From: Hymenobacter cellulosilyticus
GTDB lineage: Bacteria; Bacteroidota; Bacteroidia; Cytophagales; Hymenobacteraceae
DNA length: 64,000 bases
Assembly: GCF_022919215.1 (NCBI RefSeq)
Contig: NZ_CP095046.1
Coordinates: 5,756,501-5,820,500 of the forward strand
Reading direction: 5' to 3'
Shown in pieces: positions 1 to 11,551 of the stretch (position 1 is its first letter; each line of letters starts with the position of its first letter). The notes beneath the pieces were generated by a model. It searched no databases, was not told where the DNA came from, and saw nothing but the letters and a program-made list of their open reading frames with translations. The position numbers and the translations under genes were made by a program.

Positions 1-15
1 TTAAACCTTGGGCGC

Positions 16-372
16 TTAAACCCGGGTGCCGCCGGGCAGCAGCACTTCGATTTCGAGGTGGAGCCAATCTTCTTCCCAGGCTTTGTGCACGAGGCGGGCA
101 CCAAGGGTATAGCCGGCATCGAGGAGGCGGGCAACGGTTTCGTTGCGCACTTCGGGCAGGTAGCCCAGCCAGAGGCTGCCTTCGGTCGGGGTAGTCAGGA
201 CTTTCACGGCCCAGTCGTCGTATTTGCTGTCGGCCTCGCGCACCAGCTGGAGCGCCTGGTCGACGTAGAGCTTGGGCTCATGCTTTTTCAGATTCTCGCG
301 GTGGGTGGTGCCGGCCACCAGGCATTCAAGCAAGATCAGGTCGGGGGCAGAGGATGCGGAAGCAGTAGTCAT
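16..372 (-). CDS. HIRAN-domain protein, stand-alone
   Basis: 118 residues that fit a HIRAN domain almost end to end. After a short Ser/Ala-rich lead (residues 1-12) come a VAGTTHR strand, the LVREADSKYDDWAVKV segment corresponding to the HIRAN L.rEpdNpyDpnAv signature, and LGYLP near the middle followed by a helix ending LLDAGY. HIRAN domains bind DNA ends or 3'-hydroxyl groups and are usually fused to SNF2 helicases or nucleases; here there is no fused partner. The gene is monocistronic within the window and the next gene runs the other way. The family call is from motif recognition only; the function is unknown. Confidence 0.65.
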   Translation of the reverse strand: MTTASASSAPDLILLECLVAGTTHRENLKKHEPKLYVDQALQLVREADSKYDDWAVKVLTTPTEGSLWLGYLPEVRNETVARLLDAGYTLGARLVHKAWEEDWLHLEIEVLLPGGTRV

Positions 373-6586: not shown

Positions 6587-6821
6587 AACGTGGGGTTGGG
6601 TGGGAATCAGCCTCAAAGATAGAAGTTTCAGGATGCAGAACAGGCCCTGGGCGGGGTTGGTTCGGAGAGGCCGGGGCCACAGCAAAGTTTATGATATGCT
6701 GTATTCTTGCGGACTGACAGCCCTACTCGGTCGGGAATATTGAGTTTTGATATTCAAAAAGACCCATTCTTCCGTAGAGGGCACATTCCCTATCCGCTCT
6801 TTCCCTTCCTCCCTATTCTCC

Positions 6822-8556
6822 ATGAGTCACGAAAAGAAATTAAACGAGCTGGAAGCCACCGCCATCTGCGGCAACGACATTTCGTCCTCGTGTCTGTACG
6901 TGTCGGCCCTGGCTATAGCGTATGCGGGGCAGTACGCCTGGATTGCCCTGTTGATTGTGGGGGCCGTGCTGTTTCTGTTCCGCAGCATCTACGGCGAAGT
7001 AGTGGGCGCGCTGCCGCTCAACGGGGGCGCCTACAACGTGCTGCTGAACACGACCAGTAAGCGCAACGCGGCCCTGGCGGCCTGCCTCACGATTCTGTCG
7101 TACATGGCTACGGCGGTTATTTCGGCCTCCGAGGCCATGCACTATCTGCATACGCTCTGGCACGGGCTGCCCATCATCGGGCCACGCTGGGGCTGCTGGG
7201 CCTGTTTCTGGTGCTGACCATTCTGGGCATTTCGGAGTCGGCGAAGGTGGCGGTGGGCATTTTCCTGGTCCACCTCATTTCCCTGACCTTGCTGGTGGGC
7301 AGCGCCATCTGGTACCTGGCTACCCATGGGCTCGACAATCTGAGCTTGAACTTTCAGCTGCCGGTGAAAGGCGGCAGCGTAGCCAACGCGCTGTTCTTTG
7401 GCTTTAGCGCGGCCATGCTGGGCATTTCGGGCTTCGAAAGCTCGGCCAACTTCGTGGAGGAGCAGGACCGCGGCGTGTTTCCCAAGACCCTGCGCAACAT
7501 GTGGATTGTGGTCAGCTTCTTCAATCCGGTTATTGCCTTCCTGGCTATTGCGGCCCTACCCATGGTGGAAGTAGGCCAGCACACCGAAACCCTACTCTCC
7601 CACCTGGGCACCACCACCGGCGGCCGGTGGCTAGGCATGCTCATCTCCGTCGATGCCGTGGCCGTGCTCAGCGGGGCCGTGCTGACCTCGTTTGTGGGCG
7701 TGAGCGGCCTGATGAAGCGCATGACCCTGGACCGGATTCTACCCCAGTTCTTTCTCAAGGAAAACAAGGCCAAGAGCAACTACCTCATCCTGATTACTTT
7801 CTTCCTGCTCTGCGCCTCAGTTCTGTTTATCACCAATGGGCAGCTCGGGCCGCTGTCGGGGTGTATACCATTTCGTTTTTGGCGGTAATGGCGTTTTTTG
7901 CGCTCGGCAACTTCCTGCTTAAGAGCAAGCGGCCTAACCTGCCCCGGCCGGTGTACGCGGGCATTGGCACCGTTTTGCTGGCCCTCATTGGCATTCTGGT
8001 GGCCCTCTACGGCAACATCAAGATTCACCCCGAATACCTGATTGTGTTCCTGCAGTACTTCCTGCCCACCATGGCCCTGGTCTACGTTATGCTCAACCGC
8101 ACGGCCATTCTGAACCTGGGACTAGCGGCCATCAACTCTTTTGCCGAGCACTCCCGCTTCTCGCGCCTAGGCCGGCTATTTGTAAAGCGGCAGCTCAAGG
8201 AGCTGCACAAGCAGGAATTCGTGTTTTTCACCAAGGGCGACAATGTCTCGAACCTCAACAAGGTCATGGCCTACGTGGTGGAAAACGAGTTTACCAACCG
8301 CCTCAAGATCGTGACCCTGCTCAAGCCGGGCGAGAGCTACCCGCAGGAGTTGCTGACCGATATCCGGGTGCTGGACCGGGCCTACGAGCAAATTGAGGTA
8401 GACTTTGTGACGCTCGACGGCAAGTTTGGCCCCGAGCTGATTGACCGGCTTTCCACCGAGTGGAACATCCCCAAGAACTTCATGTTCATTGGCTCGCCCG
8501 GCAACCAGTTTCCCTACCACATTTCCGAGCTCGGTGGCGTGCGTCTGATTATCTGA
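6822..8556 (+). CDS. APC-family amino-acid permease with cytoplasmic C-terminal domain, two missing bases
   Basis: The restored protein has about 578 residues. It starts MSHEKKLNELEATAICGNDI and has about 12 membrane segments, with the APC-type GEVVGALPLNGGAYNVLLNTTS stretch near residues 66-87 and FGFSAAMLGISGFESSANFVEEQ in the middle. The C-terminal ~130 residues (from LKELHKQEFVFFTKGD) form a soluble, nucleotide-binding-like domain. The frame breaks twice, at GGG 7179-7181 (after LPIIG, continuing ATLGLLGLF) and GGG 7847-7849 (after NGQLG, continuing AVGVYTISF). One extra G at each site restores it. Substrate unknown, probably an amino acid. Ends before the palindrome array. Confidence 0.75.
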
Positions 8557-8590: not shown

Positions 8591-8885
8591 AATGCCCTGA
8601 AACAAGTCAAACCGGCTCTGGTACGCGCGTACCAGAGCCGGTTTGGTGTCAAGCTGGGCGTAGTACGCGCGTACCAGGCGCAAATCGGTGGCAAAACGCC
8701 CGCAGTACGCGCGTACCATGGCCTATGCAGCCACCAAATTGCCCATGGTACGCGCGTACTGCGGGCAATTTGGCCCAAGAAGGGGGACGGTACGTGCGTA
8801 CCACGGCCAACTCAGCAGCAAAGTTGAGCCTGGTACGCGCGGACTTTGGGGACTTTGCTGCTGAGTTGGCTTTGGTAGAGCGTAC
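8591..8885. repeat. array of seven 12-bp palindromes at 42-43 bp period
   Basis: The palindrome GTACGCGCGTAC occurs exactly at 8621, 8663, 8705 and 8748, with one-base variants at 8790 (GTACGTGCGTAC) and 8833 (GTACGCGCGGAC) and a decayed copy at 8875 (GTAGAGCGTAC). Start-to-start spacings are 42, 42, 43, 42, 43 and 42. The 30-31 base spacers are degenerate versions of one sequence in mixed orientation, so neighbouring spacers can pair: 8609-8620 with 8633-8644 gives a 36-base perfect palindrome, 8734-8744 pairs with 8763-8773, and 8809-8824 with 8852-8867. The core is strictly alternating purine-pyrimidine. Open frames across it are by-products of the 14-codon period. Confidence 0.9.
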
Positions 8886-8919
8886 AAAAGCCCGTTGCAG
8901 CTGCCTGCAACGGGCTTTT
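8886..8919. terminator. bidirectional rho-independent terminator
   Basis: A 15-bp perfect stem AAAAGCCCGTTGCAG / CTGCAACGGGCTTTT with a 4-base loop, directly after the last array palindrome. It separates the convergent permease (+) and TonB receptor (-) transcripts. Confidence 0.85.
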
Positions 8920-8978: not shown

Positions 8979-11473
8979 TTAGAACTTCACCCCTACCGAC
9001 GCCAGGAAGTTACGGGTAGCCTGGGGGAAGTAGAAGTTGAAGATTTGCGGGCGGCCGTCGGCGCCGGGGTAGCCGTAGGTGTAGCCGTTGGCTTCGTACT
9101 TACGGTTCAGTACGTTGTTGACCAACAGGCCCAGCTCAATTTCCTTCACGAATACCGGCCGGATGCTGTAGCGCACCCGAAAATCGAGCACCTGATAGGG
9201 CTTGATGCGCTTGTCGGCGCTGGCCGTATTGTCCAGATACTGCTCACTGACGGTCTTGTAGAGCAAGGCCACCCGCAGGCCCTTCAGCGGCTGGCCTTCC
9301 AGCGTGTGCGCCGACACCAGGGAAGGCGAGTAGGAAATCGTGGTGGTGCGGGCTTCGGCAGCCGTTACGGGCAGGTAGTTGGCATCATAAATCACCTCCC
9401 GGAAGCCCAGAATCCGGTTGCGGCTCATCGTGAGCGTGGAGCTTAGGCTGATTTTGTCGTCAGCCGACACGAAGCCGGTCAGCTCCAGGCCCGTGCGGTA
9501 GCTGCGGTCTACGTTGGTACGCAGGGCATTGCCCACCGAATCGAGGCGGCCGGTAGCTACCAGCTGGTCGCGGTAGTGCATGTAGAAGTAGTTGGCCTCC
9601 AGGCGCACGGCCGTGTTGGGGCCCAGCAAGGTGGTATTAGTTCGCGTCAGGCGGTAGCCGGCCTCGAAGTCGTCGAGCCGCTCGGCCCGGGCCTGGGGCT
9701 GGCCGGCGGGCCGGTCGGTGAAGTCGGAGCGCACCGGCTCCCGCTGCCCCCGGGCAAAGCTGGCGTACAGCTGCTGCCCTTCCGACACGGTAAAGGTGGC
9801 GCCGGCCTTGGGATTGACAAACAAATACCGTTCGTGGGTGGCCACGTCCCGGTTTTGCGCCTCCACCCCATCAATGCCGTACTTGATGTGGCGCACCTGC
9901 AAGTCGCCGTACACACCCAGGCGGGGCAGCACCTGGTAGGTGGCGCGGGCGTAGGCATTGTAGTCAGTCTTGCGGGCGTCGTTGAAGTAGTAGCGGTGGC
10001 GAATATTGCCGTTGGAAGCATACTGCGCCCAGATGACCTCCCCGTAATGGTCGTTGACAAACTGGTTCCAGGCCCCGCCCAGGGTAGCTTGCAGCTTGTC
10101 GTTGTTGCGGGGCTGGTAGTTGAGGGCAAACGTGCCGCCGTAGAAGTAGTTGTCGAGCCACTTCTGGTCAATCAGGTTGGTGCGCGTGAGCGTATCAGTC
10201 CCGATGATGACGTTCTGCAGGTTGTAATCGGCGAATTTGCGGCGCGCCCGGTAGCTTTCGTAGTAGCCAAAGCCGCGGGTCAGGTGCAGGGCCGCACCCA
10301 GGTTCCAGTCGGCCCCAGCCCCTGCGAAAGGTGGAGCTGGTAGTGGTTCTGCTGGTAGTTGTCGGTCTGGTTGTCGTAGGTGTAGTAGCTGTAGCGCCGG
10401 CCTTCCTGCAGGCCGCGGGCGGCGTCGGCCTCACTGAGCTCCCCGTTGTCGATAAACTGCTGGAGCAGCTTCCGGTCCCCGGTAATCAGCGGCTCGGGCA
10501 CCCCGTTCCAGGCCTGGTAGGTTTTTTCCCGGCCCGAGAAGGTGATGAACTTGACCAACGTATTCTTAGCCTGGTAGCCGGCCGAGAGGTAGTATGACTT
10601 CAGATCCGACGCGGCCCGGTTCAGGTAGCCGTCGGTGGCGATGCGCGAGAGGCGGCCATCCACGGTGAAATGCTGGCCCAGCAGGCCGGTGCCAAACTGC
10701 ACGGTGTTTTTCCAGGTATTGAAGGAGCCGACGCTGTTTTGGGTTTCGCCGTAGGCTTCGCGCCGGTTATCAAACGTGGAAATGTTGATGCTGGCCCCAA
10801 ACGCCGCCCCACCATTCTGGCTGGTGCCCACCCCGCGTTGCACCTGCAGGCTGCTCACGGACGAAGCCAGATCGGGCAGGTTCACCAAGAACGAGCCGTG
10901 CGACTCCGCATCGTTCAGCGGCACCCCGTTGATGGTCATGTTGATACCCGTGTTGCTCGTGCCCCGGATGCGGATATCGGTGTAGCCCACACCGGCACCA
11001 GCATCGGAAGTCACTACTACGGAAGGCGTCTGGTCGAGCAGGTAGGGAATGTCCTGGCCGAAGTTGCGCTTGGCCAGCTCTGCCCGGCTCACGTTGGTGT
11101 AAGCCGTGGCCGTGCGGTCGTTGGCCCGGCTGGCCGTTACCAGGGCCTCGCCGGTCAGGATGCCCCCGGTTTGTAGCCCCAGCGTGAGGCGCTGCTCGGT
11201 AGCCTGGCCCTGCACAGTCTGGCGCAGCGCATCGTAGCCCAGAAACGTAACGCGCAGCTCGTGGGCACCGGCCGGCACCGCGGGCAGGATGAAGGTACCC
11301 GTCGCGTCGGTGACGCCCACCACGGCGCCGTCGAGCAGCACGGTGGCGCCGGGCAGCACGGTGCCGGTGCGGGCATCGGCGACGGTGCCGGCCACGGGGC
11401 CCTGGGCCCAGGCGGCGGGTGCTGCCAGTAGGGGCAGCGCTGCGGCGGCCCCCCAAACCAATAAATGCTTCAA
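8979..11473 (-). CDS. TonB-dependent receptor under TPP riboswitch, probably thiamine receptor; one missing base
   Basis: The restored protein has about 831 residues. A TTG start at 11473 gives a clean signal peptide (MKHLLVWGAAAALPLLAAPA, then AWAQ); a GTG at 11524 is an alternative. A carboxypeptidase-regulatory-like beta domain (about 25-105) is followed by the plug (DIPYLLDQTPSVVV, IRIRGTSNTGINMTINGVPL) and a long barrel ending in NFLASVGVKF with the C-terminal Phe typical of outer-membrane proteins. The frame breaks at CCCC 10313-10316; one base joins LSQGLG to ADWNLGAALHLTRG. A TPP riboswitch in the leader (11552-11634) implies repression by thiamine pyrophosphate, so the substrate is probably thiamine or a precursor. 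No other thiamine gene is in the window. Confidence 0.8.
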
Positions 11474-11551
11474 GGAAATGGTAAAGAAAAAGTGGAACGG
11501 GCCCTGCGCCAGGGGTCGGCGCACTAGGTTTTCACGTTCGAGGATCGTTTG

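Follow-up and report, generated by a model that had tools for sequence, protein, structure and literature searches.

A gene-less array of palindromes with a 42-43 bp period in Hymenobacter cellulosilyticus and an uncharacterised protein family that may read arrays of its kind

The window, a 64-kb stretch of the Hymenobacter cellulosilyticus genome (G000), holds an array of palindromes between the convergent genes for an amino-acid permease and a TonB-dependent receptor (Table 1). The repeated element is the 12-mer palindrome GTACGCGCGTAC. A recount of the window sequence agrees with the preliminary description, which had reported seven copies at 42-43 bp: four are exact, two carry one mismatch and one is decayed. 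The array also ends, as had been claimed, at a terminator between the two genes. The steps between palindromes 1-6 are 42, 42, 43, 42 and 43 bp, and the spacers are degenerate half-units in both orientations.

Table 1. The palindrome array at 8591..8885 of the window and the genes on either side of it
Feature	Position	Strand	Description
Amino-acid permease	6747..8556	+	three overlapping ORFs, as if frameshifted; 3' end 65 bp from array; AA_permease_2 in the G015 orthologue
Unit 1	8609..8644		perfect 36-bp inverted repeat AAACCGGCTCTG + GTACGCGCGTAC + CAGAGCCGGTTT; nearest to the permease gene
Palindrome 1	8621..8632		exact GTACGCGCGTAC
Palindrome 2	8663..8674		exact GTACGCGCGTAC
Palindrome 3	8705..8716		exact GTACGCGCGTAC
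Palindrome 4	8748..8759		exact GTACGCGCGTAC
Palindrome 5	8790..8801		GTACGTGCGTAC, 1 mismatch, in the free centre; both half-sites intact
Arm GCCAACTCAGCAGCAAAGT	8806..8824	+	inverted copy at 8852-8870
Palindrome 6	8833..8844		GTACGCGCGGAC, 1 mismatch, alters one half-site
Palindrome 7	8875..8885		decayed GTAGAGCGTAC, 1 base missing; 42 bp after palindrome 6 (read from sequence)
Intrinsic terminator AAAAGCCCGTTGCAG..CTGCAACGGGCTTTT	8886..8919		common to both convergent genes
TonB-dependent receptor	8979..11524	-	two ORFs (8979-9932, 10280-11524); 3' end 135 bp from array

Six copies with at most 2 mismatches are found in the window. This number was reached in 6 of 100 shuffles, so the count by itself is unremarkable. 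What is striking is that exact GTACGCGCGTAC occurs five times in the 6.09 Mb genome and that four of these are in phase in the window; reversed-pattern controls gave 0. The preliminary description had held that random spacing elsewhere would count against an array. Genome-wide, the sole exact copy outside the window (C1:3016683) also lies within a 42/43-bp array, which runs from C1:3016641. TRF did not report the window array, and Rfam gave six matches with E up to 1, none reaching gathering score, which we take as chance.

The permease, TonB receptor and topoisomerase ORFs (the last at L103 10739-12436, by eye) look frameshifted in the window genome and intact in relatives, and its assembly probably contains indel errors. 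Whether a step in this genome is 42 or 43 bp is doubtful by 1 bp, since permease and receptor show these frameshifts. The arrays of relatives have spacings of 41, 42 and 43. A permease search at E<=1e-150 found no match in the window's own genome. Of 72 permease-matching genomes the best 30 loci were read and 29 flanks were resolved; the array is absent from 28 of these 29 and present only in G015. The flank in G014, whose permease is 95% identical, has the terminator alone. In G015 the orthologous site carries ten units that grade from GTACGCGCGTAC to GGACGTACGTCC, with mixed units between. A repeat-built open frame of 678 codons crosses a nine-unit array at L105 8447-10483 (G015:C1).

The second array of the window genome starts 37 bp after a gene (C1:3015903-3016601) with a product of about 233 aa. 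It belongs to a family of about 230 aa that has no significant match in Pfam, NCBIfam, PADLOC, PHROG or PDB sequences; weak scores were disregarded as chance. Seventy family proteins were found in a large database, and every one that is named by its source is 'hypothetical' or 'uncharacterized'. By profile search 39 of 120 genus genomes have the family, with 122 match rows (fragments counted) and up to 10 per genome; among 390 genomes searched beyond these it turned up in six more of the order. A second profile, run on 395 genomes of the phylum, matched two genus genomes and, weakly, G555 and G652. Across 42 members the only residues with invariant columns are M, A, G, T, P, L and F, with Y, N and R among the nearly invariant ones. 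A catalytic residue set is not apparent in this alignment, which is no proof. No family gene lies inside the 64-kb window. Broken or partial copies occur in the same genome at G000:C1:5038780-5039459 and 4580144-4580554, one of them near a weak CGACA array.

Family genes and arrays are regularly neighbours. The 119 loci reduce to 104 distinct copies, with the GTACC-class linked genes L111, L112 and L116 left out, and these were scanned for palindromes 41-43 bp apart beside the gene. The array is downstream in 80 copies, upstream in 10 and in neither place in 14. All 90 array calls outscore the best of 312 shuffles, and none of the 312 reached the cut-off. Among the first 30 copies fetched 29 passed the scan. 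Three arrayless copies are at contig ends (L153, L189, L211) and three are fragments (L169, L218, L228); the other eight are neither (L136, L165, L167, L173, L179, L200, L221, L231). A few upstream calls are weak or odd, since L227 is a broken gene, L166 is A+T-rich and L236 has direct repeats. Arrays 5' of the gene are also seen at L225, L226, L229, L223 and L230. Linked arrays mostly have 5-7 palindromes, the first of them a median of 22 nt from the last sense codon.

It must be noted that spacing, divergence and whole-palindrome counts rest on a scan that requires 41-43-bp palindromes, and only the lag test is independent of it. This test takes the best repeat lag between 15 and 80 and is palindrome-free. 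The best lag is 41-43 in 94 of the 104 copies, and in all 86 with z>5. In controls from the same genomes it is 41-43 in 17 of 300, and 19 have z>5, of which 4 are at 41-43. The distant members L271, L168, L236, L167 and L166 have a best lag of 42 beside the gene. The lag-42 signal is unclear at L165, and the array is absent at the weakest phylum match, G652 (L272). L099, from an uncultured bacterium, was found by DNA pattern alone; its 42-bp array adjoins a family gene (E=7.9e-14). We regard the linkage and the period as established by this comparison of sequences.

Among the 80 downstream arrays there are 43 distinct consensus half-sites, for example GTACG, GGACG, CCGGA, GCGGA, GCAAC, TGCAC, GGCAC, GCCAC, CGCAC, TTCTT, AAGGA, GGGAC and TAGGA. 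The two central bases are free and dyad +-2..7 is conserved between units. A second, weaker conserved zone lies one helical turn outward at dyad +-13..18, and the mid-spacer drifts. Pooled over 77 arrays, the arm motif is the same in left and right halves: R at 8, G-rich, C at 13, T at 14 and pyrimidines at 15-16. Near-perfect copies up to 70 bp apart are spaced by 41-43 bp in 237 of 239 cases (16, 190 and 31 respectively). Fifteen related array pairs, which share members and do not count as independent, show differences at 66 of 842 palindrome sites and 833 of 2757 spacer sites, and the palindromes outlast the spacers in 13 of the 15. The two closest pairs (L133/L134 and L188/L192) reverse this trend, with 5 differences in 120 palindrome sites against 5 in 385 spacer sites. 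Conservation of the half-sites, and more weakly of the arm motif, is shown by this comparison.

A coding repeat was considered too, as 42 bp is 14 codons. We reject it because no shared frame survives steps of 41 or 43 bp, and 37 of the 77 arrays with more than three units hold such steps; the other 40 have steps of 42 only. Open frames of at most 100 aa cross the window array. It had been proposed that the alternating purine-pyrimidine cores could form Z-DNA. GTACGCGCGTAC itself does alternate and other palindrome classes of the system do not. The proposal is unsupported because the sister palindromes AAGGAGCTCCTT, CCGGAGCTCCGG and TTCTTATAAGAA break the alternation.

The window array is a solo array, by which we mean a palindrome array without an adjoining family gene. 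When pairs of GTACNNNNGTAC separated by 28-33 bp were sought, 11 of the 120 genus genomes proved to have arrays, and the reversed control gave 0. These arrays have two inner forms, GTACGNNCGTAC and GTACCNNGGTAC. Some lie between ordinary genes (permease/receptor, MsrA/hydroxyacyl-CoA dehydrogenase and peroxiredoxin/transketolase, with names from Pfam), and one intergenic place can carry an array in at least two genomes. Seven others are 8-37 bp past the stop codon of genes from the one uncharacterised family. All 11 genomes also have the protein family. Searches of the same 120 genomes for further classes found GCAAC in 4, GCCAC in 11 and TGCAC in 3, with controls at 0. Linked matches are expected here by construction, because the classes were picked from arrays beside family genes. 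Family-bearing genomes account for all but one of these 18 genome-class finds; in the remaining one, G021, a GCCAC array but no family gene was found.

Solo arrays were sorted by hand into 19 genome-class pairs. In eight of these pairs the genome also has a linked gene of the same class and in 11 it does not. The association of solo with linked arrays gives a Fisher p of 1.2e-8 over 600 genome-class pairs and of 4.3e-5 inside family-bearing genomes, both with genomes treated as independent, which they are not. The two kinds thus co-occur in part of the genomes. In the window genome class GTACG has one linked array (C1:3015903) and one solo array, in the window, and class TGCAC has one linked (2134815) and two solo (662790 and 3653938). 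The neighbours of 20 solo arrays were inspected: 9 pairs are convergent, 9 tandem and 2 divergent, and the two divergent calls (L105, L113) depend on doubtful ORFs.

One can imagine that these are mobile or selfish elements of the REP/RAYT kind, with the protein moving the arrays and the solo arrays as non-autonomous copies. Solo arrays do come and go, as at the permease flank, where an array was present in G000 and G015 and 28 of the 29 flanks resolved among the best 30 loci were empty, and solo arrays co-occur with linked ones of their class. The same idea underlies RAYT genes and their cognate palindromes, which also have dispersed intergenic copies and half-units both ways (PMC2817692). 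REP/RAYT's own features are tens to hundreds of REPs per genome, 37-427 perfect copies in Stenotrophomonas, and a flanking IS200-like transposase (PMC2817692). Here, however, each class has few arrays (two GTACG and three TGCAC in G000), and the five exact GTACGCGCGTAC of the genome all lie in two arrays. The 42 members have no match in Pfam to a Y1 transposase or to the IS200-like Transposase_17 (PF01797), and their invariant residues do not look catalytic. Nor do the spacers speak for it: within one genome and class, those of solo and linked arrays are alike at 0.43-0.55, no closer than same-class pairs between genomes, which reach 0.62. We consider movement by the protein improbable.

Arrays also seem to change class in place. 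At the peroxiredoxin/transketolase site G099 and G113 have a GTACG array and G024 and G066 a GCAAC array. The spacers of G099 resemble those of the two GCAAC arrays at 0.56 and 0.59, the highest cross-class values; other cross-class pairs reach 0.54, and G113 gives 0.42 and 0.44 against the same arrays. The MsrA site has GTACG in G006 and GTACC in G115, with a spacer likeness of 0.40. This suggests that spacers were kept through a class switch at the peroxiredoxin/transketolase site only and not generally, since G113, the MsrA site and the other cross-class values are no higher. Two arrays look caught in mid-switch, the G015 permease site and L120 (five GGACGTACGTCC units and one GTACGCGCGTAC unit), and they look like a clearer sign of switching than spacer retention.

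The C-terminal tail of the protein follows the half-site better than the body does. It comes after the conserved F, with a mean of 23 residues and a mean net charge of +2.7. A partial Mantel test over 78 copies gives r=0.252 between palindrome and tail given the body, with 0 of 2000 permutations as high, and r=0.077 between palindrome and body given the tail. The nearest neighbour by tail has the exact half-site in 34 of 78 cases and the nearest by body in 17; at body identity below 40% these numbers are 6 and 1. GCCAC is common to two groups with N-[PR]-NP-[SAG]-R tails whose bodies are 30% identical. Tail and half-site therefore covary in this comparison. L123 is a single case in point. In the body it shares 89% identity with L126 (CCGG class) and 84% with L125 (GCAAC class), 84-89% across the CCGG- and GCAAC-class members L126, L127, L129 and L125, and 60-62% with the GTACG-class L118, L119 and L121. 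Yet both its tail and its array follow the GTACG type, and on these identities L123 is a natural tail/array exchange. A code carried by the tail alone is spoken against by the ranking of single columns as predictors, in which eight from the body (R182, H179, R16 and others of L119) stand above the best tail column.

The covariation could be hitch-hiking, because the tail is encoded beside the array. In one such scenario there is linkage and nothing else: decaying repeats recombine with the gene end and the protein does not read them. Local exchange is indeed visible, at L120 and at the mixed permease site of G015. This scenario does not account for unlinked solo arrays that match the linked classes in part of the genomes, for palindromes that outlast their spacers in 13 of 15 related pairs, or for a 42-bp period kept by distant members. 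We think there is very little chance that it is right.

Another question is whether the arrays act as DNA or as RNA. It had been proposed that the spacers pair to give stacked hairpins. In the gene-linked arrays this is unsupported, because from unit 2 on arm pairing within units equals that between units (0.444 and 0.443, p=0.82, 76 arrays). Hairpin pairing is better in the first unit (0.624), and likewise in unit 1 of the window array; a terminator would fit this, though TTTT follows the first unit in only 17 of 80. Internal half-sites of 83 arrays match at 0.840 within palindromes, 0.845 across spacers and 0.847 in other near pairs. An apparent excess of matching across spacers vanished once terminal halves were excluded. 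The outer halves of terminal units match the consensus at 0.81-0.88. Half-positions one unit past the array ends give 0.25-0.37 (n=15) and 0.29-0.31 (n=75), near background, so truncated edge repeats are absent, in a scan that favours whole palindromes. Palindrome mismatches are G-U rather than A-C by 89 to 66 within palindromes and 91 to 57 across spacers, with 628 to 515 in the arms. This excess is slightly above the arm ratio, so a weak possibility of an RNA role is left. From arms and half-sites without hairpin covariation we infer recognition of double-stranded DNA.

The alternative is an RNA-level system like TIGR-Tas or type III toxin-antitoxin: a transcript of the array would be processed, the palindromes would form stems and the basic tail would bind RNA. 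TIGR-Tas is the nearest known system in layout. Both have an array (of about 5-15 units there) beside a gene, up- or downstream, with repeats constant within and variable between loci, and the stem-loop type has palindromes as well (PMC12045711). The multi-unit arrays found here likewise adjoin an uncharacterised gene and keep close behind it, and the slight G-U excess also agrees with stems. Peculiar to TIGR-Tas are 36-nt RNAs, box C/D, variable spacers, Nop-protein binding and truncated edge repeats (PMC12045711). Our arrays, in contrast, have no pairing covariation within units or across spacers, half-sites that match equally everywhere and no truncated ends, as far as a scan that demands whole palindromes can tell. 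Their spacer halves carry a common motif and are not guide-like, and the 41-43 spacing is held despite diverged spacers. No universal UG/CCA flanks, as expected for box C/D, appear in the pooled frequencies over 77 arrays, read by eye. The 42 members have no Nop match in Pfam (sequence search only), and no match of weight to a toxin, defence or nuclease family was found in Pfam, PADLOC and the others. An RNA-level system is thus unlikely, if less so than a mobile one.

Other known systems share single features with this one. Plasmid iterons, which are read by Rep proteins, are repeats at whole helical turns beside the gene of the reading protein. The sites here are spaced by whole helical turns as well (237 of 239 distances, and the best lag in 94 of 104 copies, at 41-43). 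Unlike iterons they are palindromic, mostly 3' of the gene and served by several paralogues per genome, and there is no significant match to a replication gene in Pfam, NCBIfam or PDB sequences. Type III toxin-antitoxin loci have tandem units of about 36-45 nt. Short tandem units beside a protein gene are common to both. In type III loci the array comes before the gene and supplies the RNA antitoxin to a nuclease (PMC6315513). Here 80 of 90 arrays are downstream, and there is neither an RNA pairing signal nor a toxin or defence match of weight. CRISPR has direct repeats of 25-36 nt and variable spacers of similar size (PMC12045711), whereas here only about 12 bp are conserved and a common motif recurs in the spacer halves. 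Each of REP/RAYT, type III toxin-antitoxin, iterons and CRISPR fails to fit in some feature that defines it, so we file the system under none of the kinds compared. It appears to be undescribed in bacteria; no description of the family or its arrays was found in the literature searched, with most subscription papers outside its reach.

We argue that the window array is probably a solo array of a protein-plus-array system, whose protein would read it by dimers and by its tail. The preliminary description was right that the array is neither CRISPR nor a recognised mobile element. It is not isolated, however, and seems to be the gene-less relative of a multi-copy gene-plus-array module. The earlier proposal of a helically phased array suited to a cooperative dimeric protein gains by comparison with its relatives, which also supply a candidate binder. 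A protein dimer would sit on double-stranded DNA at each palindrome; its variable tail would read the 5-bp half-site, and its conserved body would contact the arm motif. The four-turn spacing would set 5-6 dimers on one face of the helix, and we therefore propose cooperative binding. The reader of the window array may be the protein C1:3015903-3016601 of the same genome, as its linked array has the same half-site.

At the 3' ends of genes the array may then serve as a compact roadblock or insulator. This guess comes from the position of the solo arrays, most of which sit between two convergent genes or a short way past a stop codon. Roadblocking of transcription by a bound protein is established in general (PMC4132739). 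A gene-end role as roadblock, insulator or anchor is our best guess at function, and a tentative one that we would sooner expect to fail than to hold. Alternatives would be autoregulation, nucleoid anchoring or a selfish module.

Where the array is 3' of the gene, tail and array are neighbours, and one recombination event could swap both, still matched. This may be a DNA-binding family in which a short C-terminal tail, open to exchange, decides the sequence preference, with dozens of readers on one body and with tail and array swapping together; we put this at a little under an even chance. If true it would be a natural, readable protein-DNA code driving the concerted rewriting of linked and unlinked arrays genome-wide. 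Most gene copies have their own candidate array beside them, so about 90 natural cases allow a pairwise comparison of protein and site, a rare situation. If the tails set the half-site, a short peptide would hold a recognition code that can be tested directly, and the laboratory would gain many different DNA binders. Protein and sites would then also be a clear example of joint change, including arrays seemingly in mid-switch. A multi-copy family named only hypothetical or uncharacterized would gain a function hypothesis.

A triple DNA pattern run over the genome collection gave 78 matches. Five have a family gene in the DNA examined, on four Hymenobacter contigs and L099. Many others are near-identical tandem repeats of 21, 22, 42 or 44 bp, set aside by eye. 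Among these, 21- or 22-bp repeats with GTACNNNNGTAC occur at L026, L029, L045, L089, L057, L067 and others (Prevotellaceae, Treponema, Hormoscilla and others); at 22 bp they are not single-frame coding repeats. Arrays of 41-43-bp palindromes with diverged spacers occur at L038 5297-5600, L052 5558-5700, L070 2890-3075, L095 1244-1430 and L071 7489-7590, in uncultured Bacteroidetes, Chitinophagaceae and one Chloroflexi contig (GTACGCGCGTAC again). No family gene near these five was detectable in the DNA examined. At L145, 3' of G097:C375:5250-5918, TGGCCGTGGCCA and CCGGGTGCCCGG alternate every 21 bp, as if two readers were on one array.
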